DNA of 64,000 nucleotides, taken from contig NZ_AUBQ01000012.1 in the NCBI RefSeq assembly GCF_000429325.1, forward strand, positions 62,001 to 126,000, in the 5' to 3' direction. Each line of letters starts with the position of its first letter. Positions within the stretch are counted from its first letter, which is position 1. Made by a program: the position numbers and the translations under genes. Origin of the DNA: Fundidesulfovibrio putealis DSM 16056. Its GTDB lineage: Bacteria > Desulfobacterota > Desulfovibrionia > Desulfovibrionales > Desulfovibrionaceae. Positions 46,795 to 64,000 of this stretch are shown here, in pieces. The notes under the pieces were generated by a model. It was not told the origin of the DNA. It made no database searches and saw only the letters and a program-made list of their open reading frames with translations.

Positions 46795-46882
46795 ATCGAA
46801 CCTCGTGTATGATTTGTATGATTGACTTGGCTGGGTTCGTGTTCTATGTATCTTGCAGAACGACCACGGCACCACCCAGCGA

Positions 46883-46966: not shown

Positions 46967-47476
46967 TCACATTGCAGTTATTGCACGGACTTCGCGATAT
47001 GCATCGCTGGCACACGCTCCTTCTCTTGATAGGTGCTCGCGAATGAACTTTGATAATAGGCCATGACAGGCGTATTCCGCATGCTTCCGCGTACCGCACA
47101 GAAGAAAGTGGACATTGTGACGAACCGTCCAAGAATAGATCGACTGAAGAACACTTGTCGGATTCATGTTGCCTCTGAACTTGCCCTTGGCGATATCCTC
47201 GGCTGATGCCTCGACTAGCACTGCGGCGAATTCCATTGCGGCAAGTCGTTCCATCTCGCGCTCGAAACGGTCACGGCCAGCGGAGAGACTCCCTATCAAG
47301 TCCTGAAGGCTCTTGCGCTCCAGGGCCACCTGATCCTCAAAACCAGGCAAAGAGTAATCCCCGGTCTTGAGTGTTCCCCGGACTACCTCTACGTCAGGAT
47401 AGCCACTGAACAGCCAGGGCCTCTTTTCCCTTGAGTCCACCACGATCCGCAGTGGCACGATCTCCGACTTCACCAT
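46967..47476 (-). CDS. ERCC4/XPF-fold nuclease of element 1
   Basis: 169 residues, essentially one ERCC4 nuclease domain: VDSREKRP (Asp and Arg of motif I), LKTGDYSL, VALERKSLQDLIG (the ERKxxxD motif with catalytic Glu, Arg, Lys, Asp). Such nucleases cut branched or flapped DNA (XPF/Mus81 type) and stand-alone short versions occur in phages and mobile elements. No helix-hairpin-helix domain is attached. ATG 47476 overlaps the previous stop by one base (TAATG), so translation is coupled. Very similar to the nuclease at 63603-64000 in element 2. Confidence 0.88.
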   Translation of the reverse strand: MVKSEIVPLRIVVDSREKRPWLFSGYPDVEVVRGTLKTGDYSLPGFEDQVALERKSLQDLIGSLSAGRDRFEREMERLAAMEFAAVLVEASAEDIAKGKFRGNMNPTSVLQSIYSWTVRHNVHFLLCGTRKHAEYACHGLLSKFIREHLSREGACASDAYREVRAITAM

Positions 47477-47874
47477 TACGCCGCAGCCCCAACGGTCAGA
47501 GCCACACGGACTTCGGAGCCATCCCGCCGCTTCCTAGTGCAATACGTCACCTTCGGCTTGGCTGGCCTTCCGCGCTTGGGTTGGGGCTTTTCGGCCAGCG
47601 TCTCCACGATCCTGCTGACAGCTTCCTTCGGGAGCCGGGAACCCTTCAACCAATCCAGGCACTCAGCCACCGTCGTTGCGGAGTACAGTTGCCGCCATCC
47701 CAGGTAGTTCCTGGCTGTAATGATAAACGGATCACGGTCAGCGGTTGTGAGTTCGTAGACCTCCAGTGTGGTGGTCAGGTAGTGCCTTCTGCTGATGAAC
47801 TCGCTCTGGGCAAGCTTGATCCCGTGAAGGACTTCACTTCCCAGTGTGATCCGACTCTTGAACGTGTTTCTCAT
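47476..47874 (-). CDS. AT-hook-like accessory protein in the nuclease operon
   Basis: 132 residues from ATG 47874 (AAGGATG 11 bases upstream; in-frame ATG at 47934 lacks an RBS). No known domain in the body (RRHYLTTTLEVYELTTADRDPFIITARNYLGW in parts); near the C-terminus KRGRPAKPKV is an AT-hook-like GRP motif that would bind the minor groove of AT-rich DNA. Coupled by TAATG to the nuclease gene, so it could recruit or control it. Inferred role only. Confidence 0.65.
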   Translation of the reverse strand: MRNTFKSRITLGSEVLHGIKLAQSEFISRRHYLTTTLEVYELTTADRDPFIITARNYLGWRQLYSATTVAECLDWLKGSRLPKEAVSRIVETLAEKPQPKRGRPAKPKVTYCTRKRRDGSEVRVALTVGAAA

Positions 47875-47979
47875 GCTGTTGTCATCCTTGGTTATGTGTT
47901 CGGGAACCCGCTCCAATACTGGCACGGTAGACACGAAATTCGGCGTTTGCGGCGGTTTGTGACCCTGAGTAAGGGGAAG

Positions 47980-48162
47980 TCACGCAGACGCCATTCTCTT
48001 GAACTTCACCCGCCCTGACTGGCTCACGTCGAGTGACACAAGGGCCAAGAACAACGATCCCTGAAGCACCTTCGCTAGCGGAAGCTGGAGCTTCTTTAAT
48101 GCGGCGCGGAATCCGTCTGCCAGGGTTTTGTCGATACGAAGACTGATCGTTTCAGTTGCCAT
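47980..48162 (-). CDS. Ribbon-helix-helix DNA-binding protein
   Basis: 60 residues: TETISLRIDKTLADGFRAALKKLQLPLAKVL (in parts) is an Arc/CopG/MetJ-type ribbon-helix-helix, a strand that reads DNA bases followed by two helices. GAAGGAAG before ATG 48162. First gene of the RHH, AT-hook-like, ERCC4 series. May be autoregulator of the operon or a copy-number/partition-type protein. Confidence 0.75.
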   Translation of the reverse strand: MATETISLRIDKTLADGFRAALKKLQLPLAKVLQGSLFLALVSLDVSQSGRVKFKRMASA

Positions 48163-48260
48163 CTCTCTTCCTTCTTTGTCTGGTTAGGGTTGAACACAGC
48201 ACAGGCCAACAAATACCCGGCCAGCACAGCGCATGACCGGGCTTTGTCAGATGTAGCGGG

Positions 48261-48479
48261 TTACGGGAGAGGACTCGTGCCCAGTTCAATCCAGATGTCT
48301 TCCAGTCTATCAGACAGGGCTTCGCTGGGCTTCACGTTCCCAAGAAGTACGTTGTTCAGGTGTGACAGGCTGACCCCAAGCTTCTCCGCAACGCGGGCCT
48401 TTTTGATGCCAGCTAGTTTGAGCAGCGCGTTGAGTGGATGCGCTTTGACTGGCCGCTTCAGTTCTTCCAACAGTGACAT
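48261..48479 (-). CDS. XRE-family helix-turn-helix regulator
   Basis: 72 residues with an HTH LLKLAGIKKARVAEKLGVSLSHLNNVLLGNVKP (in parts), typical of small phage-type Cro/C repressors. GGAGGTGAC is 4 bases before ATG 48479. Likely controls element 1 genes; possible hairpins between it and the RHH gene (48200-48235) suggest separate units. Confidence 0.75.
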   Translation of the reverse strand: MSLLEELKRPVKAHPLNALLKLAGIKKARVAEKLGVSLSHLNNVLLGNVKPSEALSDRLEDIWIELGTSPLP

Positions 48480-48580
48480 GTGTCACCTCCATGTGAGATA
48501 CATGCACCATAGCAACAGAAGCAGAGGCAGTTGCAGAATATGGTCAGACTTGATCAGAATTGCCACAGGGCCAGAAACAA

Positions 48581-48616
48581 AGAAGCCCCGCGCATCCGAT
48601 TGGACGGCGGGGCCTT
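48581..48616 (-). terminator. Terminator downstream of the gene ending at 48647
   Basis: On the minus strand AAGGCCCCGCC ... GCGGGGCTTCTTTG, a GC-rich stem followed by TTCTTTG. Confidence 0.65.
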
Positions 48617-48646
48617 GTTGTGCCTGTGTGTTTGAGCAGTTCTCGA

Positions 48647-49024
48647 CTACTGTGCGCGGACCCTCCGCTTGACGTTCTCCACAACAGCTTCGAGCAGGTG
48701 CCAAGCCACTCCGCAGTGTCCCTCTCCAGCCTCCATTCCAAGTTCAAGCAACGAGTCCAAAGGTGCCACCTCTTCGTCGAGGATCATCAAAAAGTCTTCC
48801 ACGTCCAGCCTCCTGCGTTGGGATATGTGGACGATCATATGGCACAACAGATGACAAATGTCCAGTGAAATCGGGCGGTTCAAGTTGTTCGACCAGAACT
48901 GGACTACCATGACGGGGAGTGTTCGAGTTGTACGAGTGGAGTCATTAGTAAAGTGATAATGGTTATCAATTGGCCAAGAAGTCCAACGGCTTACCAATTG
49001 AGTAGCCTTTGTTGTTTCACGCAT
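48647..49024 (-). CDS. Possible gene, unknown function
   Basis: 125 codons. The C-terminal 75 residues (ICHLLCHMIVHISQRRRLDVEDFLMILDEEVAPLDSLLELGMEAGEG in parts) look like a real helical, acidic protein; the first 40 look less so. No RBS precedes ATG 49024; starts at 48910 or 48847 are possible. A terminator lies just past its stop (48581-48616), which supports a gene ending here. Kept at low confidence. Confidence 0.4.
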   Translation of the reverse strand: MRETTKATQLVSRWTSWPIDNHYHFTNDSTRTTRTLPVMVVQFWSNNLNRPISLDICHLLCHMIVHISQRRRLDVEDFLMILDEEVAPLDSLLELGMEAGEGHCGVAWHLLEAVVENVKRRVRAQ

Positions 49025-49078
49025 TTACGTTCAGAATCCACGCGACTTTGCCGCCAGTGCCATGTGGCTTCGACGGCC

Positions 49079-49651
49079 TCAAACAGCCTTACGAATCACT
49101 TCCGGGTAGTTTGCATACAGGCTCTGACGGCTGATCCCGTATTTCTGCGCGAGGCTCTTGACCGTCTCCCCAGCGGCGATCCTGGCCTTGATCTCTTCCA
49201 CTTGTTCCGGCGTCAGCATCTTGGAGCGTCCCAGTTGTTTCCCTGCGGCCTTGGCTGCGGCGATCCCTTCACGCTGCCGCTCCTTGATCATGGAACGCTC
49301 GAACTCTGCCACGGCTCCCATGACGGCAAGCTGTAAATCCTGCATGGGGTTTGGTTCCCCTGTGAACGTCAGGGCTTCCTTGTGGAACTTAACGGCAACA
49401 CCGCGCTCGGTGAGTTCCTTCACCAACCTGAGCAGGTCGGCCAGGGAGCGGGCCAGACGATCCATACTGTGAACGTGGAGCGTGTCTCCCTTGCGAAGGT
49501 GCTTGAGGCAGGACTCTAGGCCAGGACGGTTGGTGTCCTTGCCTGACGCCTTGTCCTCGAACCGTTCATCCAGCCTGACCCCGTCCAACTGGCGTGCTAG
49601 GTTCTGATCCACACTGCTGACCCTGACGTACCCGACTTGCTGACCACTCAT
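49079..49651 (-). CDS. Serine recombinase (resolvase/invertase family)
   Basis: 190 residues. Catalytic N-terminal domain with the nucleophile Ser in GYVRVSSVDQN, Arg residues in MDRLARSLADLLRL and the E helix MGAVAEFERSMIKERQREGI; C-terminal HTH ARIAAGETVKSLAQKYGISRQSLY. Same size as Tn3-type resolvases and Hin/Gin invertases. GGAGG is 7 bases before ATG 49651. Good sigma-70 promoter at 49679-49707. Could resolve multimers of an excised element or invert a segment; no invertible gene is evident. Confidence 0.92.
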   Translation of the reverse strand: MSGQQVGYVRVSSVDQNLARQLDGVRLDERFEDKASGKDTNRPGLESCLKHLRKGDTLHVHSMDRLARSLADLLRLVKELTERGVAVKFHKEALTFTGEPNPMQDLQLAVMGAVAEFERSMIKERQREGIAAAKAAGKQLGRSKMLTPEQVEEIKARIAAGETVKSLAQKYGISRQSLYANYPEVIRKAV

Positions 49652-49678
49652 GATGTGCCTCCCTGACGTGTCAATCTC

Positions 49679-49707
49679 AGTCTAGGCACAGGCTGTCACA
49701 GTGTCAA
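49679..49707 (-). promoter_or_regulatory. Promoter of the serine recombinase
   Basis: On the minus strand TTGACA (49702-49707), 17-base spacer, TAGACT (49679-49684). Four TGTCA copies (49669, 49694, 49702, 49730) overlap it and may be resolvase subsites or an autoregulatory operator. Confidence 0.65.
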
Positions 49708-49739
49708 CCTGATCGATTTTGACGTTAGTTGTCACGGTG

Positions 49740-50401
49740 GAATGCGGGTTCCTGGGAAGGGCTAGGTGTGACTGGAAAGGTGTACTCTGGTTGACAGTGG
49801 AGAAGACTCACTGGAAGTGAAGGTGGATGACTTCCACGGGCAGGACAGGGCCAGGATCGCGACGTAACCAGGGGAAGCGGATCACCCATCAGGCAACAGG
49901 CACTCACTCTGGATGATCGTCGGAGAGGTGCCAGTTGAATCAAGCGGGACGCACGCACGCGACTCCACACACGCACAGGGGGGGGCACTACCCCTACCCA
50001 TACGGCTTGTGGTCCTGCGTCGGACCCTACTATGTTATAGGTATGGCTTTCACATTTTTTTCGCTCAGAGTGCTCAGAAACCCACACCAACAAGGCTGCT
50101 ACGGGGCCATAACGCTTTCCAACTCCCTCGCCCTTGCTTACCCTGGCTCACGTTCTGAAGCCGTCGATAATCGCCCGTAGCGGCATCCTCGGAGAACGGA
50201 AAACGCCCGTATCAAACCAGGAACCGGGGCTACGCTCACGGGTCTGGGGTTCAATCCCTCCGTTGGAACATGACCAACTTTCGGCGTTGTCATCTGCCCC
50301 CCTTCACTGGTACACATTCGCATCTCAAACGGGACTTGAGCGATGTCCCTGGAGAGAAAAGCTCAATGATTGCAGAGTTATGACAGTCAGCGGACAGTTA
50401 G
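49740..50401. other. Right-hand non-coding part of element 1
   Basis: About 660 bases with no convincing gene. Contains a T-arm-like piece of tRNA sequence at 50241-50262, an arm-type site (16-mer CTTCACTGGTACACAT at 50302-50317), and then attR. Confidence 0.5.
50302..50317 (+). repeat. Candidate integrase arm-type site, right end
   Basis: CTTCACTGGTACACAT, identical to 41987-42002; 85 bases inside attR. Confidence 0.65.
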
Positions 50402-50423
50402 TCCCTCCCTCGCTACCACGAAT
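50402..50423 (+). repeat. attR core of element 1 (displaced tRNA 3' end)
   Basis: Right copy of the 22-bp repeat; the preceding bases show no tRNA, so it is the fragment cut from the original locus. Confidence 0.92.
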
Positions 50424-50428
50424 GATCG

Positions 50429-50460
50429 GGGTCATGGCCTAAACAGCCGTGACCCTTTTT
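50429..50460 (+). terminator. Original chromosomal tRNA terminator
   Basis: Stem gggtcatggc / gccgtgaccc and T5. Lies 6 bases past attR exactly as the element's own terminator lies 5 bases past attL. Confidence 0.85.
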
Positions 50461-50521
50461 CATTTTTTACGGTCTGATATCTCAGTTTCCCCTCAAATGC
50501 CCTTGGTAGCTGTAAGGCGGT

Positions 50522-50657
50522 GCGCGATTTGGCACTGATTTGCGCAGCTTCCGGCACACCTGATTACTCCTTCTCCTCGGTTCCTTTTAGGTAAGGCTGC
50601 ACGGGCATGTAAGTCGGCGCGCGATTTGGCACTGATTTGCGCAGCTTCCGGCACACC
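50522..50657. repeat. 39-bp perfect direct repeat, two copies 97 bp apart
   Basis: Copies at 50522-50560 and 50619-50657 (GCGCGATTTGGCACTGATTT start, GCACACC end). Not part of any gene; the 595-base stretch 50424-51018 otherwise shows no supported gene. Confidence 0.8.
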
Positions 50658-51018
50658 GCCGACGCCCTTACGTTGATCTTGCCCACAGAACGCTTGCGGC
50701 GCGGCTCTACTGCCTGATGCACACCTGCGGCTGCTCCCTGTCGCCGCAGGCGAATCCAGCGACTTCCGCCAAACGTGCGACTGTAATTGACTGCATGCGG
50801 GTCTCATGAAACAGTAACGCCGCAGCGCCTCTCATCGTTTCAGACTCTGGGCACTGCAGAGGTCGGAATTGTTCACGTCATCCCGGACGCATTGGAGAAT
50901 TCAGACCACCCTGGGATTGCGCCCGCATTCGTCAGCGCGACGGCAGGCGGCATGACCCCGGCGTGGCATATGCTGCGCGCAGCTATTTATCCGGGCCGCC
51001 GTTTGGCCGAGAGCACCT

Positions 51019-52773
51019 ATGAAAAGCTATGGAAAACTGATCATTCTGGGAGTGATTCTCACTGCGACCTGGACTGCATTCGTCTACCATTTGTACACTG
51101 TGGCTGCCAGCAGCCTGCTCGAAAACCAGTATCATCAGGCCCTCGTAGAAGCCCGCATCGCTTACGAAAAGGACATCACCTACCGGCGTTGGTCAGCCAG
51201 ACTGGGGGGAGTTTACGCTGAAGTATCGGACGCATTGACCCCCAACCCATACCTGGACGTTCCCGAGCGCGACGTAGTGACCGAATCAGGAAAAGTGCTC
51301 ACCCTGATAAATCCGGCCTACATGACGCGCATGGTCCACACAATCATGGACGAGGAAGCCGGATTGAAGGCTCACATAACGAGTCTCAACCCCATCCGCC
51401 CGGAGAACGCGCCGGATGAATGGGAGACGAAAGCCTTGAAATCGTTCTATGACGGCGCCCCCGAGGCTCACGAGATCGGAGCGACGGACGGGAAACAGAC
51501 GCTGCGGTTCATGCGCCCGATGATTACTGAAAAAGCGTGTCTGAGATGCCACGCCAAACAAGGCTACAAGGAAGGGGAGATACGGGGAGGAATCAGCGTG
51601 ACCGTTCCCATGGACAAATATTTCTCCAGCCTGAATGAACCCAAAATGCAAATACTGCGGCGCTACCTGACTTTTTTTGCAGTCGGGTCCCTCCTCATAT
51701 TGTCTACAATAATCGTCATGGTGCGGCACGAACGTTTCAGGAACAAATCTGAGACGTCCATAAGGCTGTCCGAGGAAAAAGCCTGGGAGAGCGAGGAACG
51801 ATTCCGGCTGCTCATCAACAACGCCGGCGACGCAATATACCTCTCCGACCTGCAGGGACGCCTCTTGCGCGTGAATTACGAATCAGAGCGGCAAACAGGG
51901 TATTCGCGTGAAGAACTCCTGAACATGAACGTCCTGGACCTGAACGCGACACACCTCCCCCTGGAAGCGCTTTCGGAACTCGTTCGCAAGATCACGCAAA
52001 CCCGCAAGGCTTCGTTCGAAACCTGGAACCGCCACAAGGACGGGCACGAATTCCCCGTGGAGCTCCGTGTCGTGTACGTCGATATGGGCTCCGAGGCGGC
52101 CTTGCTGGGAATTTCCCGGGACATAACCGAGCGCAAGCGGGCCGAAGAGGTCATGGCCAGATCACTGCACGAGAAGGAAATCCTGCTGAAGGAAATCCAC
52201 CACCGCGTGAAGAACAACCTCCAGATCATCTCCAGCCTGCTCAGCCTGCAGGAACAGAAGCTGAGCGACCTCGGCATGCTGGACGTGCTGGCCGAGAGTC
52301 GTGGCCGCATCATGTCGATGGCGCTCATTCACGACCAGCTGTACCACTCCGGAAATTTTGCGGAGATAGGCATGGAGGAATACCTGCGCCAACTCCTCCC
52401 GCGCCTGATCCAGACATATAAAGGCAAGCGGGACATCGCCCTGCGCCTGGACCTGCACCCCATCCCTATCTCTCTGGACCAGGCTATTCCTTTCGGGCTC
52501 ATCATGAACGAACTGACCACCAACGCCCTCAAGCACGGGTTCAGGGAACGCATCACGGGCGTTATCAGCATCGCGGCCACCCTGAGCGAAGGCGTGATCA
52601 ACCTTTCGGTCGAGGACAACGGGATAGGGCTGCCGCCTGGATTCATGTTGGAGAAACAGAACACCCTGGGCCTTCAGATCGTGACCTTGCTCATCGGACA
52701 GCTGCACGGCGACCTCACCATGACGTCAGGTCCCGGGACCTGTTTCCGGCTGCGTTTCCCGATGGCCGCATGA
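51019..52773 (+). CDS. Haem-binding-type (Tll0287-like) PAS sensor histidine kinase, HisKA_2 class
   Basis: 584 residues. TM helix (about 7-28), periplasmic Tll0287-like domain with CLRCH haem motif (about 174-178), second TM (about 215-235), PAS (about 255-375), then HisKA_2 with His in EIHHRVKNNLQIISSLL (about 393) and HATPase (NELTTNALKHGF; VEDNGIGLPPG). This kinase subclass often talks to CheY-like or anti-sigma partners. The haem would sense redox or gas. No strong RBS before 51019. Response regulator not adjacent. Confidence 0.9.
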   Translation: MKSYGKLIILGVILTATWTAFVYHLYTVAASSLLENQYHQALVEARIAYEKDITYRRWSARLGGVYAEVSDALTPNPYLDVPERDVVTESGKVLTLINPAYMTRMVHTIMDEEAGLKAHITSLNPIRPENAPDEWETKALKSFYDGAPEAHEIGATDGKQTLRFMRPMITEKACLRCHAKQGYKEGEIRGGISVTVPMDKYFSSLNEPKMQILRRYLTFFAVGSLLILSTIIVMVRHERFRNKSETSIRLSEEKAWESEERFRLLINNAGDAIYLSDLQGRLLRVNYESERQTGYSREELLNMNVLDLNATHLPLEALSELVRKITQTRKASFETWNRHKDGHEFPVELRVVYVDMGSEAALLGISRDITERKRAEEVMARSLHEKEILLKEIHHRVKNNLQIISSLLSLQEQKLSDLGMLDVLAESRGRIMSMALIHDQLYHSGNFAEIGMEEYLRQLLPRLIQTYKGKRDIALRLDLHPIPISLDQAIPFGLIMNELTTNALKHGFRERITGVISIAATLSEGVINLSVEDNGIGLPPGFMLEKQNTLGLQIVTLLIGQLHGDLTMTSGPGTCFRLRFPMAA

Positions 52774-52862
52774 CGCTTGGCGCGTGGCGTCGAGTTCGAT
52801 TGTTCCAGCGCCAGGAGCCTGCCCCCTTTCCGGGGCGCGCCCCTCCGGCGAGGGAGTGGCCG

Positions 52863-53630
52863 TCAGCGGACTGCAGATGAAACGCACTCACCCTTCAGGA
52901 GAATCTCCTCATAGCGCCCGTCTTCCTTGATGATGGCCAAGCCTCGCTCGAAAACCTTCAGAAACTCGCTCCCGTCAGGATGTTTTTTCGAGACCATAAG
53001 GTGCAGGGGCAGCTCGAACAGCGGCGTCCGGGCCACGGCCACCCGGTCGAAATCCTTCAGATGCCTTGCCTCCAGGATGGTCCAGCCCACCGCCTCGCTT
53101 TCTGGAACCACATCGACCCTGTCACTCAACAGCTTCGCGAAGGACTTCTCGGCATCCTGGGCGTAATCCGCCCGGACTCCGGCCTTTTCGAACATCTCAA
53201 CATAGGCATAGCCTCGTGAGCCGCCTACCCGGAGCTGCTTCAGATCCTCAAACCCCGTGTAGTCCCAACCTGGCAGTTTGTCCTTGAGATAGAAAAAGAC
53301 CATCCGGTGCATGCCCAGCGGGTCCGAGACATGACAGGTTTCCTCAAAGGATTCGGTGCGTGACCACGGGAAGGATGCCAGGGCCGCGCCCGACTGCACT
53401 TCAATCTGGTTGCGGGGCCAGGGCACGAAGCTGAAATTAACGGAGTGTCCCGCGGCCTCCACGGACTTCTCGATGATGCAGGCCATCGCCCCACCCCCTT
53501 CCAGAGTCTCCGAGACGTAGGGGAGCCACTCACCTGTCAGGACAGTGAACTGCTTTGCATGGGCAGGTTGCCGCGAGAAGAGAATCGCCAACACGCAAAG
53601 CGATATGCAGAGCCGTGACGAGAGGGACAT
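52863..53630 (-). CDS. Periplasmic solute-binding protein (amino-acid ABC type, SBP_bac_3)
   Basis: 255 residues from ATG 53630 (GGAGGA 8 bases upstream): signal peptide ending QPAHAKQF, then a type-3 periplasmic-binding fold (GEWLPYVSETLEGGGAM, FVPWPRNQIEV, LRVGGSRGYAYVEMFEKAGV in parts, LLSDRVDVVPESEAVGW). No ABC permease or ATPase is next to it, so it is an orphan binding protein, which in this group often serves a sensor rather than transport. Ligand not predicted. Convergent with the kinase at 51019-52773. Confidence 0.85.
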   Translation of the reverse strand: MSLSSRLCISLCVLAILFSRQPAHAKQFTVLTGEWLPYVSETLEGGGAMACIIEKSVEAAGHSVNFSFVPWPRNQIEVQSGAALASFPWSRTESFEETCHVSDPLGMHRMVFFYLKDKLPGWDYTGFEDLKQLRVGGSRGYAYVEMFEKAGVRADYAQDAEKSFAKLLSDRVDVVPESEAVGWTILEARHLKDFDRVAVARTPLFELPLHLMVSKKHPDGSEFLKVFERGLAIIKEDGRYEEILLKGECVSSAVR

Positions 53631-53865
53631 TTCTCCTCCGAGGGGCTGTATCACTTTCAATCCGCTGAGCGCCTGCCGAGTTCAGACTCACGGGAACGTC
53701 TTTATCCCGCGCGGGTCGAATTGCCACGGCCGACAACGTCTTGCCTTGCCGTCGTACGCTCCCGGTGGGACCACCTCACGGACGTGAACGAAAAAAGCGC
53801 CGGAGACCGACGCTTTTTCCCGGCACACGAAACCGGACACATGAAGAAACGTCCCCAAACTTACC

Positions 53866-56304: not shown

Positions 56305-56331
56305 ATACGCAGGGGAATGAGGGACAAACGG

Positions 56332-57996
56332 CTAGCTGGTGGCTTCTGGGGCCTTGCCCTCATCCTTGGCACGGATCTCGGCGCGCTTGATCTTGCCGCT
56401 TATGGTCTTGGGCAGTTCGGGCAGAAACTCCACGATGCGGGGATACTTGTACGGAGCGGTGACCCGCTTCACATGATTCTGAATGTCCTTCACCAGTTCG
56501 GGCGAGGGCTCAAAGCCTGCGCCGAGCACCACGGTGGCCTTGACGGCCTGTCCGCGTTCAGGGTCAGGCACGCCGGTAACCGCCGCCTCGATCACGGCAG
56601 GGTGCGTCACCAGGGCGCTCTCCACCTCGAAGGGTCCGATGCGATAGCCGCTGGACTTGATGAGGTCGTCGTTGCGGCCAAGGAACCAGAAGTAGCCGTC
56701 CTCGTCGCGCCAGGCCTTGTCGCCGGTGTGGTAGTAGCCGCCAAACAGGACGGAGGCCGTTTTCTCGGGCTCGTACAGGTAGCCCTCGAACAGGCCGAGC
56801 TCCTTGCCGTTGCCCACGCGGATGCAGATTTCACCCTCCTCGCCCGGCGGACAGGGGTGGCCCTTGGCGTCCAGGAGAACGATGTCCCAGCCGGGACACG
56901 GCTTGCCTATGGACCCAGGCCTCACGGGCATGTTGGGGAAGGCTGCGATCTGCAGGGTGGTCTCGGTCTGGCCGTAGCCCTCGTAGATGGTGAGCCCGGT
57001 GGCCTCCTTCCAGGCGTGAAACACACCCTCGTTCAGCAGCTCCCCTGCGGTGGTGCAGTGGCGCAACTTGGAAAGGTCGAACTGCGTGAGGTCCTCCCGG
57101 ATGAGGAAGCGGTAGATGGTGGGCGGGGCGCAGAAGGTGGTCACGCCGTGCTCGGCCATCACGCGCAACAACTCGGCGGGAACGAACTTGCCGCGATAGT
57201 CCCAGGTGAACACACTTGCCCCGGCCATCCACTGGCCGAAGAACTTGCCCCAGATGGACTTGGCCCAGCCGGTGTCCGCCACGGTGAGGTGCAGGTCGCC
57301 GGGGCGCAGGTCGTGCCAGTAGACGCCGGTGGTGATGTGCCCCAGGGGATAGTTATGGTTGTGCACCACCATCTTGGGCATGCCCGTGGTGCCGGAGGAG
57401 AAGAAGATGAAGGAGACGTCCTCGCCGCAGGCGGCGTCCTCGGGGCGGGGGAATTCCGGGGACGCTGCGGCCAGACCGGCCTCGTAGGCGTTCCAGCCGT
57501 CGCCGGCGGGCATGTCCCCTACGCGTACCAGCACCGACAGAGAGGGACAGGCGTCCTTCACGGCGTCGATGCGCTCCACGAAATCCTCTTCCACGACGCA
57601 GGCCCTGATCCCGGCCTTGTTGACGCGGAACTCCACGTCATGGGCCGTCAGCAGGTGCGGCGACGGCACCGGCACCGCGCCCAGCTTGTGCAGGGCCAGG
57701 GTGGTAACCCAGAACTCCACGCGGCGCTGCAGAACCAGCATGACCTTGTCGCCCTTGGCGATGCCCATGGCCTTGAAGGCGTTGGCCATGCGCGAGGACT
57801 GGGTGCTGAAGAAGGCCAGATCCAGATCGCGCCGGGTGCCGTCGGGTCCGATGTGGACCATGGCTGGGCGGTCGGGATGAAGGGCGGCCTCCTTGTCGAG
57901 GAAATCGAACGCGAAGTTGTACCCGGAGGGGGCTTTCACGGCGTACTGGGCAGAATACTCTTCAAAAGTGTCGTAACGCTTGAACTCGGGCTGCAT
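56332..57996 (-). CDS. AMP-forming acyl-CoA synthetase (acetyl/aryl-CoA ligase type)
   Basis: 554 residues from ATG 57996 (GAGGAGG 7 bases upstream). ANL-family motifs: P-loop FIFFSSGTTGMPKMVVH (about 195), YEGYGQTET (about 330), FGGYYHTGDKAWRDEDGY (about 420), DDLIKSSGYRIGPFEVE and the catalytic C-terminal Lys in KTISGKIKR. Converts a carboxylate to its CoA ester through an acyl-AMP. Similar to benzoate/medium-chain ligases (AcsM/ACSM type). Co-transcribed with a cupin regulator 11 bases upstream, which probably senses its substrate. Substrate not predicted. Confidence 0.9.
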   Translation of the reverse strand: MQPEFKRYDTFEEYSAQYAVKAPSGYNFAFDFLDKEAALHPDRPAMVHIGPDGTRRDLDLAFFSTQSSRMANAFKAMGIAKGDKVMLVLQRRVEFWVTTLALHKLGAVPVPSPHLLTAHDVEFRVNKAGIRACVVEEDFVERIDAVKDACPSLSVLVRVGDMPAGDGWNAYEAGLAAASPEFPRPEDAACGEDVSFIFFSSGTTGMPKMVVHNHNYPLGHITTGVYWHDLRPGDLHLTVADTGWAKSIWGKFFGQWMAGASVFTWDYRGKFVPAELLRVMAEHGVTTFCAPPTIYRFLIREDLTQFDLSKLRHCTTAGELLNEGVFHAWKEATGLTIYEGYGQTETTLQIAAFPNMPVRPGSIGKPCPGWDIVLLDAKGHPCPPGEEGEICIRVGNGKELGLFEGYLYEPEKTASVLFGGYYHTGDKAWRDEDGYFWFLGRNDDLIKSSGYRIGPFEVESALVTHPAVIEAAVTGVPDPERGQAVKATVVLGAGFEPSPELVKDIQNHVKRVTAPYKYPRIVEFLPELPKTISGKIKRAEIRAKDEGKAPEATS

Positions 57997-58007
57997 CGCC
58001 GCCTCCT

Positions 58008-58568
58008 CTAAATGATCACGTCCAGAAACACGGCCTCTTTGCCGTCCAGGGCACGCATGGCATGGGGAATGGTGGAGCTGAAATACAGGCTGTCCTGGGG
58101 CTCCATCACCACGGACTCCTTGCCGAGCGTTACCTCCATGCGGCCCTGCAGAAGGAAGATGAACTCCTCGCCCGCATGCTGGTTGAACTCCAGCGCGCTG
58201 TGCTCGCGAGGAGGAACGGACACCAGGAACGGCTCCATGCCGGGGCGGCTGAAGCGGTAAGCCAGGGACTGGTACTTGTAGGCCTTGCGGCGCGTGACGG
58301 ACAGCCCCTCCCCCTTCTTCACCAGGCTGAACTGATGCAGCTTGGCCTCCGAGCCGGTGATGAGGGCGGTCAGGTCCACTCCGGTGGCCTTGGCCACGGC
58401 GTACAGATAGCTGACAGGAACCTCTCGGGTTCCGGATTCGAAGGTGAGGACGTCCTCCACGGGGACTCCCGCTCGGGCGGCCAGTTCCTCCGGAGAAAGG
58501 CTCAGGGCGTCGCGCAGGTCCTTGATACGCCGGGAGATGTCGCGATCGATGGTTGTCGGCAGGCTCAT
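58008..58568 (-). CDS. XRE helix-turn-helix plus cupin transcriptional regulator
   Basis: 186 residues: N-terminal HTH (IKDLRDALSLSPEELAARAGVPVEDVLTFESG in parts) and C-terminal cupin_2 beta barrel (HAGEEFIFLLQGRMEVTLG, DSLYFSSTIPHAMRAL), where His residues of the cupin motif are kept. Proteins of this architecture regulate adjacent catabolic genes in response to small carboxylic ligands. GGAGGAG before ATG 58568. Just 11 bases before the acyl-CoA ligase gene. Ends near ssrA. Confidence 0.88.
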   Translation of the reverse strand: MSLPTTIDRDISRRIKDLRDALSLSPEELAARAGVPVEDVLTFESGTREVPVSYLYAVAKATGVDLTALITGSEAKLHQFSLVKKGEGLSVTRRKAYKYQSLAYRFSRPGMEPFLVSVPPREHSALEFNQHAGEEFIFLLQGRMEVTLGKESVVMEPQDSLYFSSTIPHAMRALDGKEAVFLDVII

Positions 58569-58692
58569 TTGCTCCTCCTTGCGTTGCTGGAGGGCCGGAT
58601 AGCCTAAATTGGTCTGAAATACGAGATTTTTTCACACTCTTGGCACTTGCCGAACGCCGGAAAAGGCCTTAGATAGTCTTTTGGACATCCCT

Positions 58693-59043
58693 GGGGGCGC
58701 ACTGGTTTCGACGGGGATAGTGACGACAAAGTTGCGGGCCGAGGATCCACGAGGCCTCGTAAAAAACGTGGAACCAAGTTAATCGCCAACGATTACGAAT
58801 ACGCCCTGGCCGCTTAAGGCCAGCCTCCCTCTGACCCACGCCTGGTAAGTCGGATGCGGGGGACACCCCACCAAGCTGGCGCTCGCAGTTGTCCGTTGAA
58901 GCGAGCGTGAGAACTTAAACGGTCTGGGTTCGGGACGCCCGGCCGGAAGGCACGTCCGAACCGAGATCAATTTCCGGCCTACGCCTGTAGATGCTTTGCC
59001 CGAGCGTTCTCGGACGGGGGTTCGATTCCCCCCGCCTCCACCA
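58693..59043 (+). ncRNA. ssrA: Transfer-messenger RNA (tmRNA)
   Basis: 351 bases. 5' GGGGGCG pairs with 3' CGCCTCC, then A and CCA; the 5' part has GGTTTCGACGGGGA, a conserved one-piece tmRNA motif; the T-arm reads GGGGGTTCGATTCCCCCC. The tag ORF is at 58785-58817: GCC AAC GAT TAC GAA TAC GCC CTG GCC GCT TAA, peptide ANDYEYALAA, close to tags of Desulfovibrionaceae. Pseudoknot-like complementary blocks occur between. The 3' end serves as the attachment site of element 2. Confidence 0.97.
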
Positions 59044-59098
59044 ACAGGACTTCCAGTACAGTCCGACAAAGTCCACATCCCCCAGGAATTTAAGGAAA

Positions 59099-59122
59099 AA
59101 GGCGGTCCGCAAGGGCCGCCTT
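59099..59122 (+). terminator. Terminator after ssrA
   Basis: Stem aaggcggtcc / gggccgcctt with GCAA loop, then TCGTCCGTTTT. Confidence 0.75.
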
Positions 59123-59158
59123 CGTCCGTTTTGGTCCGTTGACATCCACGATCTGAGT

Positions 59159-59247
59159 GGGTAACTGCGCGGGTAACACAGGCCAGCGGGTAACTTTGCG
59201 GTGGGTAACTGCGAAGCCCGCGCCAGTCCAGGATTGAGAGGTTACCC
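59159..59247. repeat. GGGTAAC arm-type sites of element 2 integrase
   Basis: GGGTAAC at 59159-59165, 59171-59177, 59188-59194, 59203-59209, and inverted GTTACCC at 59241-59247, just before the integrase start. P4-family integrases recognise such short repeats. Confidence 0.75.
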
Positions 59248-59250
59248 GCC

Positions 59251-60480
59251 ATGCCCCTGACCGACATCGCAGTGAGAAACGCGAAGCCCGGAGAGAAGAA
59301 AATCAGGCTCAGGGACGAGCGTGGGCTCTTCCTGGAGGTGAGCGCTGGGAAAGATGGCAAACCACGCAAGTGGTGGCGGTTCCGCTACAAGCTCAACGGG
59401 CGCGAGAACATGCTCTCTCTCGGAGTCTACCCGGACGTCACCCTGAAGGACGCCAGGGACCGCCGCGACGAAACCCGCAGGTTAATCTCACAGGGGATTG
59501 ACCCCGCTCAGGCCAGGAAGTCTGCGAAGACAGAGGAGGCTGAGAACGGTGAAACCTTTGAGCGCATCGCAAGAGAGTGGTGGGCCAAGTTTCAGCCGAC
59601 CTGGACCGAGGAACACGGCGGGCAAATCCTTCGCCGCCTGGAGCTAAATGTCTTCCCCTGGATCGGCTCGCGTCCCATCAAGGACATCACCGCCCCCGAA
59701 ATTCTGAAGCTGGCTCGCCGCATCGAGTCGCGCGGAGCCCTAGAGATGGCCCACAGGACCATCCAGGGTTGCGGTCAAATCTTTCGCTACGGCATCGCCA
59801 CTGGCAGGTGCGAGAGGAATCCTGCCGCCGACCTTCGCGGCGCTCTCCCACCAGTAAAAGAGAAGCATCACCCAAGCATCACGGACCCGAAGGCCATCGC
59901 CCCACTCCTTCGCGCAATGGATGCCTACCAGGGTTCACCAATCACGGGCTGCGCCCTGCGACTGGCCCCACTGGTGTTCGTTCGCCCTGGCGAGCTTCGG
60001 CACGCGGAATGGGCTGAAATCAACATCGAGGCCAAGGAATGGCGAATCCCCGGCCACAAGATGAAGATGCGCGAACAGCACATCGTCCCGCTGGCCCGGC
60101 AGGCTCTCGTCATCATTGAGGAGCTTCACCCCCTCACCGGCCACGGGAAGTATCTCTTCCCCTCCATGCGGACCCTGGATCGCCCCATGAGTGAGAACAC
60201 TGTCAACGGCGCACTGCGACGCCTGGGGTACACCAAGGACGAATTGACCGGCCACGGCTTCCGTTCCATGGCCTCTACCCTGCTCAACGAACAGGGGTGG
60301 AATCGAGACGCCATCGAGCGCCAGCTTGCCCATGCAGAGCGTGACAACATCCGAGCGGCTTACAACTACGCGGAGTTCCTGCCTGAGCGGCGAAAGATGA
60401 TGCAGGCCTGGGCTGACTACCTTGATTCGCTGAAAACTGGCGCGAAGGTAACCCCGCTCTTCCAAGAAGCTACCGGCTGA
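59251..60480 (+). CDS. P4-type tyrosine integrase of element 2
   Basis: 409 residues. N-terminal arm-binding DUF4102 domain (PLTDIAVRNAKPGEKKIRLRDERGLFLEVS in parts), core-binding domain (about 100-190) and catalytic domain with Arg in FVRPGELRHAEWAEI, HGFRSMASTLLNEQG and Tyr in RAAYNYAEF. This class integrates into tRNA and tmRNA 3' ends. Start ATG 59251 with GAGAGG about 12 bases upstream; the arm repeats lie just upstream. Unrelated at the N-terminus to the integrase of element 1. Confidence 0.95.
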   Translation: MPLTDIAVRNAKPGEKKIRLRDERGLFLEVSAGKDGKPRKWWRFRYKLNGRENMLSLGVYPDVTLKDARDRRDETRRLISQGIDPAQARKSAKTEEAENGETFERIAREWWAKFQPTWTEEHGGQILRRLELNVFPWIGSRPIKDITAPEILKLARRIESRGALEMAHRTIQGCGQIFRYGIATGRCERNPAADLRGALPPVKEKHHPSITDPKAIAPLLRAMDAYQGSPITGCALRLAPLVFVRPGELRHAEWAEINIEAKEWRIPGHKMKMREQHIVPLARQALVIIEELHPLTGHGKYLFPSMRTLDRPMSENTVNGALRRLGYTKDELTGHGFRSMASTLLNEQGWNRDAIERQLAHAERDNIRAAYNYAEFLPERRKMMQAWADYLDSLKTGAKVTPLFQEATG

Positions 60481-61169
60481 ACCCGTCCACCTCGGACGGA
60501 TAGCATAATCGACCAGGAGGGGGAGATGCGACCCTCCATCGATCCGCTTCTCATGATGATGTTCGCAGGCAAGCGGCATGATCCAGTTCTTGATTCCGCC
60601 CGCCCATCATCACGCCTCAATCGGCCCTGGACTTCGGTTCAGGGCTTTCCTTTTTGGCCGTACAGGTATTAATTTGACGCATCACTAACGCACTGGAACC
60701 CAGGAAGCACCTAATAGAGTGTTATGCCTAGCGATTTTCGACCATAGCAGAGAACTATTTCTTGACAATTTGCTGCAATTTCGTCAGAAGCTGCTCCATC
60801 CGCATTTAGCGAGTGCCCTGGCGCTCCGCGTTACTCTGATTTCTCCATAAGATCATAGAGAGAAGGATTTAATTTTCCTATCTCTCGAATGCCTCTGGCC
60901 TTATCAGGTCAGGTAAACTGGTTTGTCCGCGACAATCTGGAAGCTGAATGCCATGCAGTGTTCGGGGAGAGCTTGAGGCCATGAAGGCCTTAGGAATCTT
61001 GGCAACGAGACAAGGAAGAAGATCGCGTCCTGCGTGGTGCGCCTGATGGACTAATCCCAAGGGGCAGGGCCTCTAGAATCGAAGGCAACGCGACGGGTCG
61101 CTCGGGGCGCTCAATGATGTGTGTAGGCAAGGGCAAGTTTCATAAACAAATAACATGTATAGGAGTTTT
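60481..61169. other. Non-coding region of element 2
   Basis: About 690 bases with no supported gene. AT-rich around 60700-60870, with TTGACA at 60762-60767 as a possible -35 box and no convincing -10. It could hold the element's control region or origin; no clear iterons. Confidence 0.45.
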
Positions 61170-61358
61170 ATGGTGTATTATTCGCACATGGGGCAGCTAC
61201 TTCAGCTGCGCAATCGTAATGACGCCACAGTGATGACTGTGAGCAAAGGACTCTGTCGGGCTATTAGCACCGTCAATACCGAGAGTCTCGGGTACAACCA
61301 AATGCCCGACCACACTAAGGTCGCGCAGGAGAAGTTTCAGAAGGAGAACGGAAACTGA
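61170..61358 (+). CDS. Small coupled protein of element 2, unknown function
   Basis: 62 residues from ATG 61170 with AGGAG 4 bases upstream (an ATG at 61155 is possible). Its TGA overlaps the next ATG by one base (TGATG), a strong sign of real translation. Sequence VYYSHMGQLLQLRNRNDATVMTVSK... shows no domain. Confidence 0.5.
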   Translation: MVYYSHMGQLLQLRNRNDATVMTVSKGLCRAISTVNTESLGYNQMPDHTKVAQEKFQKENGN

Positions 61359-61570
61359 TGAGCCTTACGAATTGTTCTGCCCCCGTGGGGGGGGATCGTT
61401 ATCTCCGCGCCAAGGAGGTCTGTTTTCTTCTCGGCATCAGCAAATCTACGCTCTACAAGTTCATCGGCGAAGGGAAGTTCCTGGCACCAATGAAGTTCGG
61501 CCCCCGTACTTCCGTATGGCTCAGTTCTCAGGTGCAAGCCTTCATCGGCAGCAAGGGAGCGCAAGAGTGA
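61358..61570 (+). CDS. AlpA-family helix-turn-helix regulator/excisionase
   Basis: 70 residues: DRYLRAKEVCFLLGISKSTLYKFIGEGKFLAPMKFGPRTSVWLSSQVQAFI (in parts) is the AlpA/MerR-like winged helix typical of P4-type islands, where it activates integrase excision or acts as recombination directionality factor. AAGGAG before ATG 61358. Overlaps the next gene by 4 bases. Confidence 0.9.
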   Translation: MSLTNCSAPVGGDRYLRAKEVCFLLGISKSTLYKFIGEGKFLAPMKFGPRTSVWLSSQVQAFIGSKGAQE

Positions 61571-63411
61571 ACGGACAGAGTATTGGTGAAGAAAGTGGTG
61601 CCAGGAGGGGGGATGTCGCTACCGGTGCCTACGCCCAAACGGTATTGCAAGATGAGCTTGAGGCCGTTGCAACCGCCTCTGCTGAACAAAGAGACGACGC
61701 CTTGAACAAGGCCGCGTACTCTCTGGGCCGATTCGTGGGGGGCGGAAGCCTTGATGCGAAGCGTGTTGAGGCTGAACTTGTTGATACTGCACGAATCGCT
61801 GGCGTGGATGAAGACGAAGCTCTCTCTGCGATCAGGAGCAGCATCAAGGCGGGCAGGAGCAATCCGCGCTCGGTTCCTGATCAGGAAGGAAAGGCAATCT
61901 TCATCCGTGAAGATAATATGGCCGAGGTGGCGGACAGGTGCGAAGAGATTCTCGCCGATCCCGGACTCCCTCAAGAGAGTCGCATCTTTCAGCGAGGGGG
62001 AAAACTCGTGCGGGCCGTGACCCTGCCAGCGGCGGATTTCGACACGGATCCCTCGAACTCAAAGCGATCCGCCGCGATACTTGAAGTGACACGCCATTAC
62101 CTCCTGGACATCCTCTCCCGATACGCCCGCTTTACTCGTTTTGACAGACGTACAGGGAGACGACAGCCATGCAATCCGCCAAAAGAGGTTGCGGAGATTG
62201 TCCTTGCTCGGAAAGGTTTCTGGAAGGTTCCTGTTCTGCGTGGGGTCTTGAACTGCCCAACGCTTCGGGCCGACGGGACGGTCATCGCCGCACCAGGGTA
62301 TGATCAAATAAGCGGGTACTTCCTAGCTCATAGTCTGAGGATCAACCTCGCTGATGAACCTTCGGCGAAGGATGTCCAGAACGCCCTCAAGAAACTGATC
62401 AACCTACTCTCTGGCTTCTCGTTCGTCGGAGATGAAGACCGTTCTGTAGCCCTGAGCCTTATCATGACCTCTGTCATCCGGTCTGCACTAGATTGCGCCC
62501 CATTGTCGGTAATCTCCGCAACGACTCGCGGTAGTGGTAAGAGCACTTTGGCCGACATCTGTTCTGCCATCTCACAGGGACGCAGGAGTACCGTTCTGTC
62601 CTCGACAACCGATCGGGAGGAGTTCGAAAAACGACTTACGGGATGCCTTATAGGGGGAGACCCCATGGTCAACATGGACAATATTAACGGTACGCTAGAG
62701 TCCGATTTGCTTTGCCAGGCTGTCACTTCGGAATCTCTGAGAATCCGTCCTCTTGGTGGAAGCGGTCAGATTGAAATTCCCAACACAGCCCTGTTTTGCG
62801 CCAACGGCAACAACCTAACTGTCAGCGGGGACCTTGCTCGTCGGACCATCCTGTGCAAACTGGACCCCGGCCTCGAGCGTCCAGAGGAACGGACATTCCC
62901 CTTTGATCCAGTCGCGTTGGCCCTTGCGACTCGGACCTTGTACGTCGAAGCTGTCCTGACCATCGTGAGAGGCTATCTTGCAGCGGGCAAGCCCAACATG
63001 GGGCTTACCCCCTTTGGCAGCTTCGAACGGTGGTCGGCACTGGTCCGGTCGCCATTGGTTTGGGCTGGGATGGTCGATCCGTGCAAAAGCCGGGTGGCTG
63101 TCATCGAAGGAGACCCAGATGCCCAGTTGCTTAAGGAGATGCTTGTTGAGTGGCACAAGATTTTTGGGCGTACCCCAAAGACCGTGAAGGAGGTTATTGG
63201 AGTCGCTACCGCTGATCATGATGGGATGTTGTATGAAATTCTCGATGCCATCGCTGGGGATCGCAGTGAGATTAACGCCAGGAGGCTGGGGCACTGGCTC
63301 AAACGCAACATTGGCCGGATCGCGAATGGTCTAAGGGTGGAACAGCATTCAAGCTCCAGCAGGGTCCATTGGAAGGTCATACCCGTTGGAAGTGGGCATG
63401 ATCGGTTTTGA
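61567..63411 (+). CDS. P-loop NTPase, replicative helicase-type protein of element 2
   Basis: 614 residues from GTG 61567, which overlaps the AlpA stop (GTGA) and has AAGGGAG 9 bases upstream. Walker A ATTRGSGKSTLAD (about 320-332), Walker B-like VNMDNINGTL, and an arginine-finger-like GDLARRTILCKLDP typical of phage/plasmid SF3 or DnaB-like ATPases used in replication of satellites. The N-terminal 250 residues show no primase zinc finger or TOPRIM/AEP motif I can name. Near the C-terminus there is a winged-helix-like block. Probably unwinds origin DNA of the excised element. Confidence 0.75.
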   Translation: MNGQSIGEESGARRGDVATGAYAQTVLQDELEAVATASAEQRDDALNKAAYSLGRFVGGGSLDAKRVEAELVDTARIAGVDEDEALSAIRSSIKAGRSNPRSVPDQEGKAIFIREDNMAEVADRCEEILADPGLPQESRIFQRGGKLVRAVTLPAADFDTDPSNSKRSAAILEVTRHYLLDILSRYARFTRFDRRTGRRQPCNPPKEVAEIVLARKGFWKVPVLRGVLNCPTLRADGTVIAAPGYDQISGYFLAHSLRINLADEPSAKDVQNALKKLINLLSGFSFVGDEDRSVALSLIMTSVIRSALDCAPLSVISATTRGSGKSTLADICSAISQGRRSTVLSSTTDREEFEKRLTGCLIGGDPMVNMDNINGTLESDLLCQAVTSESLRIRPLGGSGQIEIPNTALFCANGNNLTVSGDLARRTILCKLDPGLERPEERTFPFDPVALALATRTLYVEAVLTIVRGYLAAGKPNMGLTPFGSFERWSALVRSPLVWAGMVDPCKSRVAVIEGDPDAQLLKEMLVEWHKIFGRTPKTVKEVIGVATADHDGMLYEILDAIAGDRSEINARRLGHWLKRNIGRIANGLRVEQHSSSSRVHWKVIPVGSGHDRF

Positions 63412-63602
63412 CGGTTTTGACGGTTCTCTACCCCCACGTATGAGAAGTATCAGGACAGTTTATATACAGGTGGTGAAACAAACCATCAAAAGCGACAAAA
63501 CATTCAGGATGAAAACAAGACAAGGACACGCAGCTTTGAGACACAGCCTTCCTGAATTCGGTCTTGCAGAGATCAGGTATCTTAACCAAGATCGGGGCCA
63601 AT

Positions 63603-64000
63603 ATGGGCGTGAGTGCCAGCATGGCGAGTAAAACCATCCCATACGCCCCGCTTCGGATCGTGGTAGATACCCGTGAGCAGCGCCCCTATCAGTTCGAGAA
63701 GTACGACGTGGAAGCCATCCGGCATACCCTGAAGACCGGGGATTACTCCCTGGCCGGGTACGAAGATCGTGTGGCCTTCGAGCGTAAATCCTTGGATGAT
63801 CTGATCGGCTGCCTCACCACTGGCCGGGATCGCTTCGAGCGCGAACTTGCCAGGGCCAAGGGGCTCGACCTCTTCGCCGTCATCGTGGAAGGGACCATGC
63901 AAGAGGTGAGGGAGGGAAGATACCGAAGTCGGATTAACCCTCATGCCGCGCTCCAGAGTATAATTGCTTTTCAGGTACGTTACGGCACTCAATTCGTGTG
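63603..64000 (+). CDS. ERCC4/XPF-fold nuclease of element 2 (3' end outside window)
   Basis: At least 132 residues; open at the window edge. Starts ATG 63603 (or 63621, both in frame, no strong RBS). PLRIVVDTREQRPYQFEKY, LKTGDYSLAGYEDRVAFERKSLDDLIGCL and GRDRFEREL carry the ERCC4 nuclease motif ERKxxxD. Resembles the nuclease of element 1 at about half its residues, with the same spacing. Follows the NTPase gene by 190 bases with no recognised gene between. Confidence 0.88.
   Translation, partial: MGVSASMASKTIPYAPLRIVVDTREQRPYQFEKYDVEAIRHTLKTGDYSLAGYEDRVAFERKSLDDLIGCLTTGRDRFERELARAKGLDLFAVIVEGTMQEVREGRYRSRINPHAALQSIIAFQVRYGTQFV

Follow-up and report, generated by a model that had tools for sequence, protein, structure and literature searches.

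Two integrative elements in one stretch of the genome of Fundidesulfovibrio putealis DSM 16056 each carry a gene for a closely similar, stand-alone nuclease of the ERCC4 family, which raises the question of what such a protein does for elements whose replication genes differ. The window, meaning the whole stretch of 64,000 nucleotides that was analysed, covers positions 62001-126000 of contig C5 (NZ_AUBQ01000012.1) in a 4.7 Mb genome with an estimated completeness of 99.99% (the tool's own estimate). Element 1 occupies a tRNA-Met gene and element 2 the tmRNA gene ssrA; loci, genomes and contigs used for comparison are referred to by L, G and C numbers. The ERCC4-only protein is probably a branched-DNA endonuclease of the element replication module that can be exchanged with a RuvC/MOC1-like resolvase. 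Seen directly are an intact active-site motif and fold, a place beside replication genes, a reshuffled pairing with replication types and, in the ERCC4 slot of some relatives, a predicted resolvase in its stead.

Two stand-alone ERCC4 nucleases

The presence of two similar stand-alone ERCC4 nucleases, described in an earlier note on this DNA, was borne out. Both proteins passed the Pfam model PF02732 (cut-off 24), with 52.5 bits for the one at 46967-47476 and 62.7 bits for the one from 63603 onward, and BLASTP between them gave 78 identical residues in 147 (53%, E 2e-57), far beyond chance. Both also matched phrog_3490, at 2.2e-24 for the element 1 copy and 1.5e-29 for the element 2 copy.

46967-47476, minus strand: element 1 stand-alone ERCC4 nuclease, 169 amino acids (aa) (PF02732 6.2e-14; phrog_3490; AlphaFold pLDDT 93.3; Foldseek XPF/Hef)
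63603-64163, plus strand: element 2 stand-alone ERCC4 nuclease, its last part outside the window (to contig C5 126163) (PF02732 4.6e-17; phrog_3490)

Depending on the start codon (ATG at 63621, ATG at 63603 or TTG at 63564), the element 2 protein measures 180-199 aa, and it was scanned by Pfam as 186 aa; a 77-aa call at 63398-63631 that overlaps it is probably spurious. The same genome holds a third ERCC4 gene over the Pfam cut-off at C3:190804-191154, for whose element a search with exact 15-mers found no att sites.

The ERCC4 active-site motif is defined as GDX(n)ERKX3D, and it is present in both window proteins (GDY...ERKSLQD and ERKSLDD), the catalytic residues G39 D40, E53 R54 K55 and D59 being invariant across 24 aligned relatives. 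All four motifs listed in the earlier note, VD(S/T)RE, LKTGDYSL, ERKSL(Q/D)DLIG and GRDRFERE, occur in both proteins, but not at the same spacing as had been claimed: the BLASTP alignment places a one-residue gap between VD(S/T)RE and LKTGDYSL. The AlphaFold model (pLDDT 93.3), in which residues 130-168 form a single helix, had as its top Foldseek matches, with a probability of 1.00, 2bhn (an archaeal XPF) together with 1j24 and 1j22 (Hef nuclease domain), and profile comparison also matched Hef 1j22 (E 1.5e-13). Full XPF/MUS81/Hef-type enzymes possess a C-terminal (HhH)2 domain, and Hef possesses a helicase as well. A Pfam scan of both window proteins (169 and 186 aa) returned the ERCC4 domain only, with neither (HhH)2 nor helicase.

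Replication context and the exchange with a resolvase

A PF02732 search of 199 related genomes located the family, whose members mostly measure about 150-190 aa, at 76 places in 52 genomes. Such frequencies are lower bounds because three further ERCC4 genes (L316, L323 and L337), which turned up in loci fetched for other reasons, were missing from the genome search list. Phage records contained 58 matches among 50,697, the best of them in haloarchaeal tailed viruses with up to 45% identity, and plasmid records contained 23 among 72,556, every one below 60% identity. The gene is thus neither rare nor placed in random contexts, which supports the earlier proposal of a recurrent module with a useful function.

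The surroundings of all 76 places were analysed with genes from our own gene caller. Ten places (L037-L046) form one phage-like cluster of a Sak4-like annealing protein, SSB, ERCC4, a RecD-like helicase and a primase; with these dropped and the split gene of L109 counted once, the context counts refer to 66 places. A frequent gene order runs from the integrase through AlpA or a small HTH gene, a primase-helicase and a small gene to ERCC4. Within the five co-oriented upstream genes, a member of six replication families (AAA_25, DUF927, DUF3987, primase Zn-ribbon/Toprim, the DUF5906-like family of element 2 and AEP-TOTE) was present at 46 of the 66 places, compared with 62 of 386 control genes, that is, other genes of 110-260 aa from the same loci judged by the identical rule. 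Some of the remaining upstream proteins were scanned, yielding extra Prim-Pol, Replicase, AAA_25 and HTH_36 matches in some cases and phage lysis, virion or SbcC-like matches instead in others (e.g., L081, L086 and L104). The preceding gene overlaps ERCC4 or ends within 20 nt of it at 49/66 places. An integrase-cluster gene lies no more than 14 genes away at 54/66, a count that takes in element 1 through the integrase of element 2 since element 1's own falls in another cluster, and it is upstream and co-oriented at 48/66. An AlpA-cluster gene stands upstream in 26/66 (two members of the cluster were checked by Pfam), and AlpA or the small cluster f5, which has no Pfam match, in 40/66. A DUF5681 gene occurs within three genes after ERCC4 at 15/66. 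Of the 64 loci scanned, 22 have an integrase with a tRNA or tmRNA gene no more than 500 bp away, the two elements of the window not among them. As a separate observation, the replication gene ahead of ERCC4 is an AEP-TOTE primase in L066:9050-11818(-) (by Pfam) and in L051 (by clustering), a domain otherwise named after TOTE conflict systems.

Wider contig sets, classed with our own profiles, comprised 80 genome-contig loci and 53 viral-contig loci, one of the latter without an ERCC4 call; several loci appear to belong outside Desulfobacterota. Desulfovibrio piger ATCC 29098 has two of the loci (L150 and L152), and Fundidesulfovibrio agrisoli SG106 has one (L130). An upstream replication gene together with an integrase was found in 29/80 genome-contig and 2/53 viral loci, and a Sak4-like, SSB or RecD-like gene within three genes of ERCC4 in 14/80 and 8/53, respectively. 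ATPase-ERCC4 modules followed by terminase-like, portal-like and capsid-like genes occur in L054, L061 and L069 (G010), in L060 and L064, and in the viral loci L190, L192, L193 and L195. Most of these gene names are our own reading of the sequence, and the loci may be small prophages or capsid-forming satellite-like elements.

The slot taken by ERCC4 can also hold a different protein. A RuvC-like protein was found in four of the 199 genomes, each time (4/4) in an ERCC4-type slot. It matches phrog_1770, "Holliday junction resolvase", at 6.9e-30, and its four-sequence profile matches solved structures of the chloroplast Holliday junction resolvase MOC1 (E 1.7e-17); a Pfam scan was negative at E 0.1, and the AlphaFold model was weak (pLDDT 71.7, from four rows) and was not used for a fold search. 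The comparison of L315/L372 with L316/L373 displays the exchange within otherwise similar surroundings: the primases are 80% and the following genes 82% identical, and the next gene encodes the RuvC-like protein in L315 versus ERCC4 in L316 (27.8 bits). In L344/L370, the gene ahead of the RuvC-like resolvase shows 64% identity, across 78 aa, with the second gene upstream of ERCC4 in L087. In L104, an SbcC-like gene lies three genes before ERCC4 and L104_16 directly after it; homologues of these two genes flank the RuvC-like gene in L368 and L369. The RuvC-like and RusA profiles gave 0 matches among the 1571 proteins of the family's ERCC4 loci, both genes being rare anyway.

RusA (PF05866) was seen after a primase, with one small co-oriented gene between, in L366 and L367, the former also carrying TerL and portal genes by our own profiles. 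These are 2 of 19 RusA places, most of the others being viewed with 1.5 kb flanks, and too few for RusA to be regarded as a general ERCC4 substitute.

Forty loci with a DUF927 or DUF5906-like primase and no ERCC4 reported by the genome search were fetched, better-scoring ones first and not at random; 39 of them gave a usable primase call, and L334, which did not, was dropped. Three of the 39 held ERCC4, one held the RuvC-like protein, and 35 matched none of the ERCC4, RuvC-like and RusA profiles. Some DUF927-primase loci without ERCC4 have a Mob_Pre-type relaxase gene after the primase, identified by Pfam in L305:7179-8345(+) and by similar sequence in L303, L308 and L310, which suggests that these are mobilisable relatives.

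A small companion gene supplies a second connection between the two nucleases. Six loci contain a gene of 51-62 aa directly before ERCC4, and among 4860 proteins, with some loci represented twice, the companion profile gave 15 distinct matches at E < 1e-4. The companion is a small charged protein of 49-65 aa (100 aa in L058) with a motif like ELEAEAIRELERMERALNAKKS. Fourteen of the 15 matches are small genes with ERCC4 as the next co-oriented gene, at 12 distinct places (L087, L088, L048, L056, L057, L083, L058, L064, L192, L193, L195 and L323, of which L064, L192 and L193 are nearly alike). The fifteenth is the N terminus of a RuvC/MOC1-like resolvase in L370 (G151:C10), also numbered L344:1498-2133(-), with E 3.4e-6; it scored 25.3 bits, compared with a best of 9.9 among the 1260 scored of 2000 composition-preserving shuffles. 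The resolvase of L315 gave no match to the companion profile, and a companion of 50-60 aa is absent from the window elements. That a protein encoded beside ERCC4 in one element should form part of a predicted Holliday junction resolvase elsewhere strongly hints at a shared function.

The window elements and the shuffling of modules

Element 1 is 8.5 kb long, inserted in tRNA-Met and flanked by exact 22-bp direct repeats. Its features apart from the nuclease are as follows.

41807..41883, plus strand: tRNA-Met(CAT), integration target (ARAGORN)
41867..41888, unstranded: left att copy, 22 bp, overlapping the tRNA 3' end (exact direct repeat)
42030..43757, plus strand: integrase, DUF6538 + Phage_integrase, 575 aa (Pfam/PHROG)
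45961..46875, minus strand: replication initiator-like protein (HTH_36, O-like), start codon uncertain (PF13730 2.2e-14; phrog_270 6.5e-9)
47476..47934, minus strand: protein upstream of ERCC4, its stop TAA sharing one base with the ERCC4 start ATG (TAATG); no match in Pfam, PHROG or PADLOC
48261..48479, minus strand: small HTH protein (HTH_3 22.3 bits, just under the cut-off of 23)
49079..49651, minus strand: serine resolvase/invertase (PF00239 1.1e-38)
50402..50423, unstranded: right att copy (exact direct repeat)

Element 2, of about 18.8 kb, lies in ssrA between near-perfect repeats of about 127 bp of the tmRNA 3' end, found by local alignment; numbering is continued past the window end where needed.

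58693..59043, plus strand: tmRNA (ssrA), integration target (ARAGORN)
59022..59148, unstranded: left att copy (local alignment)
59251..60480, plus strand: integrase, Arm-DNA-bind_3 + Phage_int_M + Phage_integrase (Pfam)
61358..61570, plus strand: AlpA-like regulator/excisionase (PF05930 37.8 bits, cut-off 21)
61567..63411, plus strand: primase/helicase-type replication protein, DUF5906-like (PF19263 26.0 bits, under the cut-off of 27.6)
77808-77933, unstranded: right att copy (local alignment)

The replication protein of element 2 also matched phrog_29234, of unknown function, at 6e-124 and phrog_19930, DNA polymerase/primase, at 8.7e-31. Downstream of ERCC4 lie type I restriction, YgjP-like, ImpB/MucB-type polymerase, S24 peptidase and SRAP genes; the last three, at 73441-77343 in window-equivalent numbering, make up a small SOS/mutagenesis-type cassette inside the att repeats. 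Element 2 carries the gene set of PICMI/PICI-type satellites, namely integrase, AlpA and primase without capsid genes, the DUF5906 score being just below the cut-off. No structural genes were found in the scan of 8 of its 11 gene calls after ERCC4, the remaining three being of 41-69 aa. Element 1 does not show this gene set: in 9 of its 11 gene calls (all except those of 61 aa and 87 aa), no AlpA was found and an O-like initiator stands in place of the primase.

The earlier note had described two unrelated integrases and different replication genes. The latter description is confirmed, as an HTH_36/O-like initiator in element 1 faces a primase/polymerase-type protein in element 2. The integrases, by comparison, both match Phage_integrase (PF00589) and are tyrosine recombinases, although they are divergent, with a pairwise identity of 22% over 216 aa that is not significant (E 0.12) and different N-terminal domains, DUF6538 in element 1 and Arm-DNA-bind_3 in element 2.

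A relative of element 2, L063 (G106:C5), is borne by the tmRNA gene of a congeneric species and was compared with the window-equivalent positions 58000-73000. Its integrase is 85% identical to that of element 2, AlpA 75%, ERCC4 68%, HsdR 95.6%, YgjP 99.6%, HsdS 46% and HsdM 66%. BLAST gave no match between its replication protein, an AAA_25 ATPase, and that of element 2, and the pair thus reads as a swap of the replication module.

The same pattern extends over the family. The ERCC4 tree comprised 76 proteins of at least 110 aa (73 from the survey and three added later), with 8 rows unlabelled and the type of element 1 assigned by hand. Replication type changed at least 26 times on this tree, where the minimum possible is 8 and the shuffled mean is 43.1, with 0 of 200 shuffles as low; replication types are therefore clustered, yet by no means bound to the ERCC4 lineage. 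One 11-row set (SH-aLRT 97), in which AAA_25, DUF5906-like, DUF927 and HTH_36 types are mixed, contains the two window copies as well as the C3 copy. Joint tracking of integrase and ERCC4 lineages was considered and is only weak, the two sets of distances giving a Mantel r of 0.11 over 49 pairs, with 12 of 999 permutations as high. Judged from these comparisons, the ERCC4 genes of such elements have been shuffled among unrelated replication proteins, and what the earlier note saw as two imports by unrelated integrases is better described as this shuffling, with integrases that are divergent members of one superfamily.

Function and relation to known systems

In the scheme proposed here, the integrase, with AlpA where present, would excise the element, and the primase/helicase or initiator would then copy it. 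Four-way junctions, flaps or stalled forks would result from the copying and from recombination between copies. The ERCC4 nuclease would cut such branched DNA, probably as a homodimer in the manner of other XPF/MUS81/Hef nuclease domains, allowing the DNA to be separated, circularised or packaged. The nuclease would thereby do the same job as the RuvC/MOC1-like resolvase of sister elements and phages, with which it may exchange; its cutting activity, substrate, dimeric state and stage of action are what we infer. PICMI satellites, which carry int, AlpA and a DUF3987 or DUF5906 primase, are reported to package their DNA as a concatemer and to have fewer circular and concatemeric copies once the primase is deleted (PMC10803314); elements of this type can therefore be expected to contain branched or multimeric DNA. 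Staphylococcus phages are reported to need Sak/Sak4 recombinases for replication (PMC5499656), with which the Sak4-SSB-ERCC4 phage modules fit.

Among the functions listed in the earlier note, branch cleavage in replication fits best because a predicted Holliday junction resolvase takes the same slot and the companion is fused to it in one relative. Several points weigh against this reading. The slot argument assigns function by position only, through the four RuvC/MOC1-like places, the one companion fusion and the two RusA places, and an enzyme specific for forks or flaps would suit it almost equally well. The proteins are without the (HhH)2 DNA-binding domain of XPF/MUS81/Hef enzymes. ERCC4 is optional, given that 35 of the 39 primase loci (chosen for having no reported ERCC4, and several of them cut by contig ends) have none of the three nucleases; such elements can therefore manage without ERCC4 or use the host RuvC, and a universal resolvase slot is ruled out. 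As for RusA, 17 of its 19 places, most of them viewed with flanks of 1.5 kb, showed no primase of these types alongside, and in L366 and L367 it is with its N-terminal third that the DUF927-family model matches the primases. Element 1 has ERCC4 ahead of the initiator, a reversal of the order seen elsewhere, and AlpA was not found there. No recognised replication gene or integrase was present in 20/80 genome-contig and 37/53 viral loci of the wider sets; with profiles derived from a single bacterial family and many of the contigs short, these loci neither support nor refute the reading.

The protein might alternatively be a fork or flap endonuclease for replication restart or lagging-strand processing, Hef/MUS81-like and not a true four-way-junction resolvase. 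By Foldseek, its fold is closest to those of XPF, Hef and MUS81, enzymes whose substrates are forks and flaps, and the gene comes after primase-helicase genes. The protein that stands in for it in four genomes is, however, predicted to resolve Holliday junctions, and we give this account a modest chance. It is quite improbable that the nuclease prepares DNA for packaging, by cos/pac nicking or concatemer trimming, or aids integration or excision. Terminase-like or packaging-type genes do follow ERCC4 in the ATPase-ERCC4 loci listed above, where the large terminase was profile-tested in L061 and, with a weak result, in L064 and the portal and capsid names are our sequence reading, and the DUF5681 gene after ERCC4 at 15/66 places points the same way. 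Recognised packaging clusters are, however, limited to few loci (unannotated genes could hide more), and ERCC4 tracks the replication genes while being only weakly tied to integrase distance. Excision in particular is unlikely to be what the nuclease generally serves, since integrase-primase loci that are comparable but have no ERCC4 turn up readily.

A role in defence or takeover, directed against incoming phage DNA or the host chromosome, is the least probable of these accounts and would be surprising. Element 2 contains a type I restriction system, hence defence cargo is present, and a PICMI satellite is reported to protect its host from other phages (PMC10803314). Against this, PADLOC assigned 0 families to both ERCC4 proteins, leaving defence without positive support, and the gene is grouped with replication genes, not with the restriction cargo; in L063, moreover, YgjP (99.6%) and HsdR (95.6%) are nearly unchanged but ERCC4 is only 68% identical (HsdS 46% and HsdM 66%).

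Beyond the favoured reading of a branched-DNA endonuclease in the replication module, a broader and more tentative proposal, to which we give somewhat less than even credence, is that the stand-alone XPF/MUS81-family nuclease may be a portable junction-resolution cassette and would add one more class to the Holliday junction resolvases of mobile elements, next to RuvC/MOC1-like proteins and RusA. Satellite-like elements and phages would plug it into unrelated replication proteins. In some lineages, the companion of 50-60 aa may attach it to the replication machinery, and this companion can alternatively be part of a MOC1-like resolvase. The ERCC4, RuvC/MOC1-like and RusA folds are unrelated, and the three would accordingly be analogous, not homologous. 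The RuvC/MOC1-like protein (phrog_1770) shares the slot in sister elements and phages, and RusA, which relieves the UV or mitomycin sensitivity of E. coli K-12 ruvC or ruvABC deletions, follows the primase in two loci.

By profile, the proteins belong to the family of PHROG 3490, "ERCC4-type nuclease", and PF02732, a protein of HRTV-27 (MZ334522) being 45% identical over 73% of the query; unlike the viral members of PHROG 3490, the present copies belong to integrative elements and are frequently accompanied by AlpA and a primase. With Hef, XPF and MUS81 (1j22-1j25, 2bgw and 2bhn), they have the nuclease fold and active-site motif in common, whereas helicase and (HhH)2 are missing from them. 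PICMI satellites combine int and AlpA with a DUF3987/DUF5906-kind primase (PMC10803314), and element 2 has a similar gene set. PICMIs are described as adjoining fis in Vibrionaceae, with PICMI115 comprising six genes (PMC10803314), whereas the present elements lie in tRNA or tmRNA genes and have ERCC4 added. With tRNA-Met and tmRNA as targets instead of a site beside fis, they were not classed as PICMI proper. Phage-dependent induction and packaging are described for PICMI/PICI-type phage satellites (PMC6092414).

The nuclease family, Holliday junction resolvases and the displacement of RuvC by RusA in some jumbo phages (PMC7824862) are already known; the main text of PMC7824862 mentions neither ERCC4 nor XPF, and the word "resolvase" is absent from the text of PMC10803314. 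In mostly open-access literature, without bioRxiv preprints, no paper was found that ties ERCC4 to satellites or integrative elements, or to resolvases or the companion. The new content is the resolvase swap and the companion fusion. PHROG 3490 bears only the label "ERCC4-type nuclease", and the swaps and the fusion turn this into a testable assignment, in which the branch of the XPF/MUS81 superfamily found in mobile elements would be a junction resolvase that does without (HhH)2. Should it hold, the assignment would show how satellite-like elements handle branched and concatemeric DNA, would add a minimal relative to a nuclease family central to human DNA repair, and would provide a marker to find AlpA-primase elements beyond the well-studied groups.

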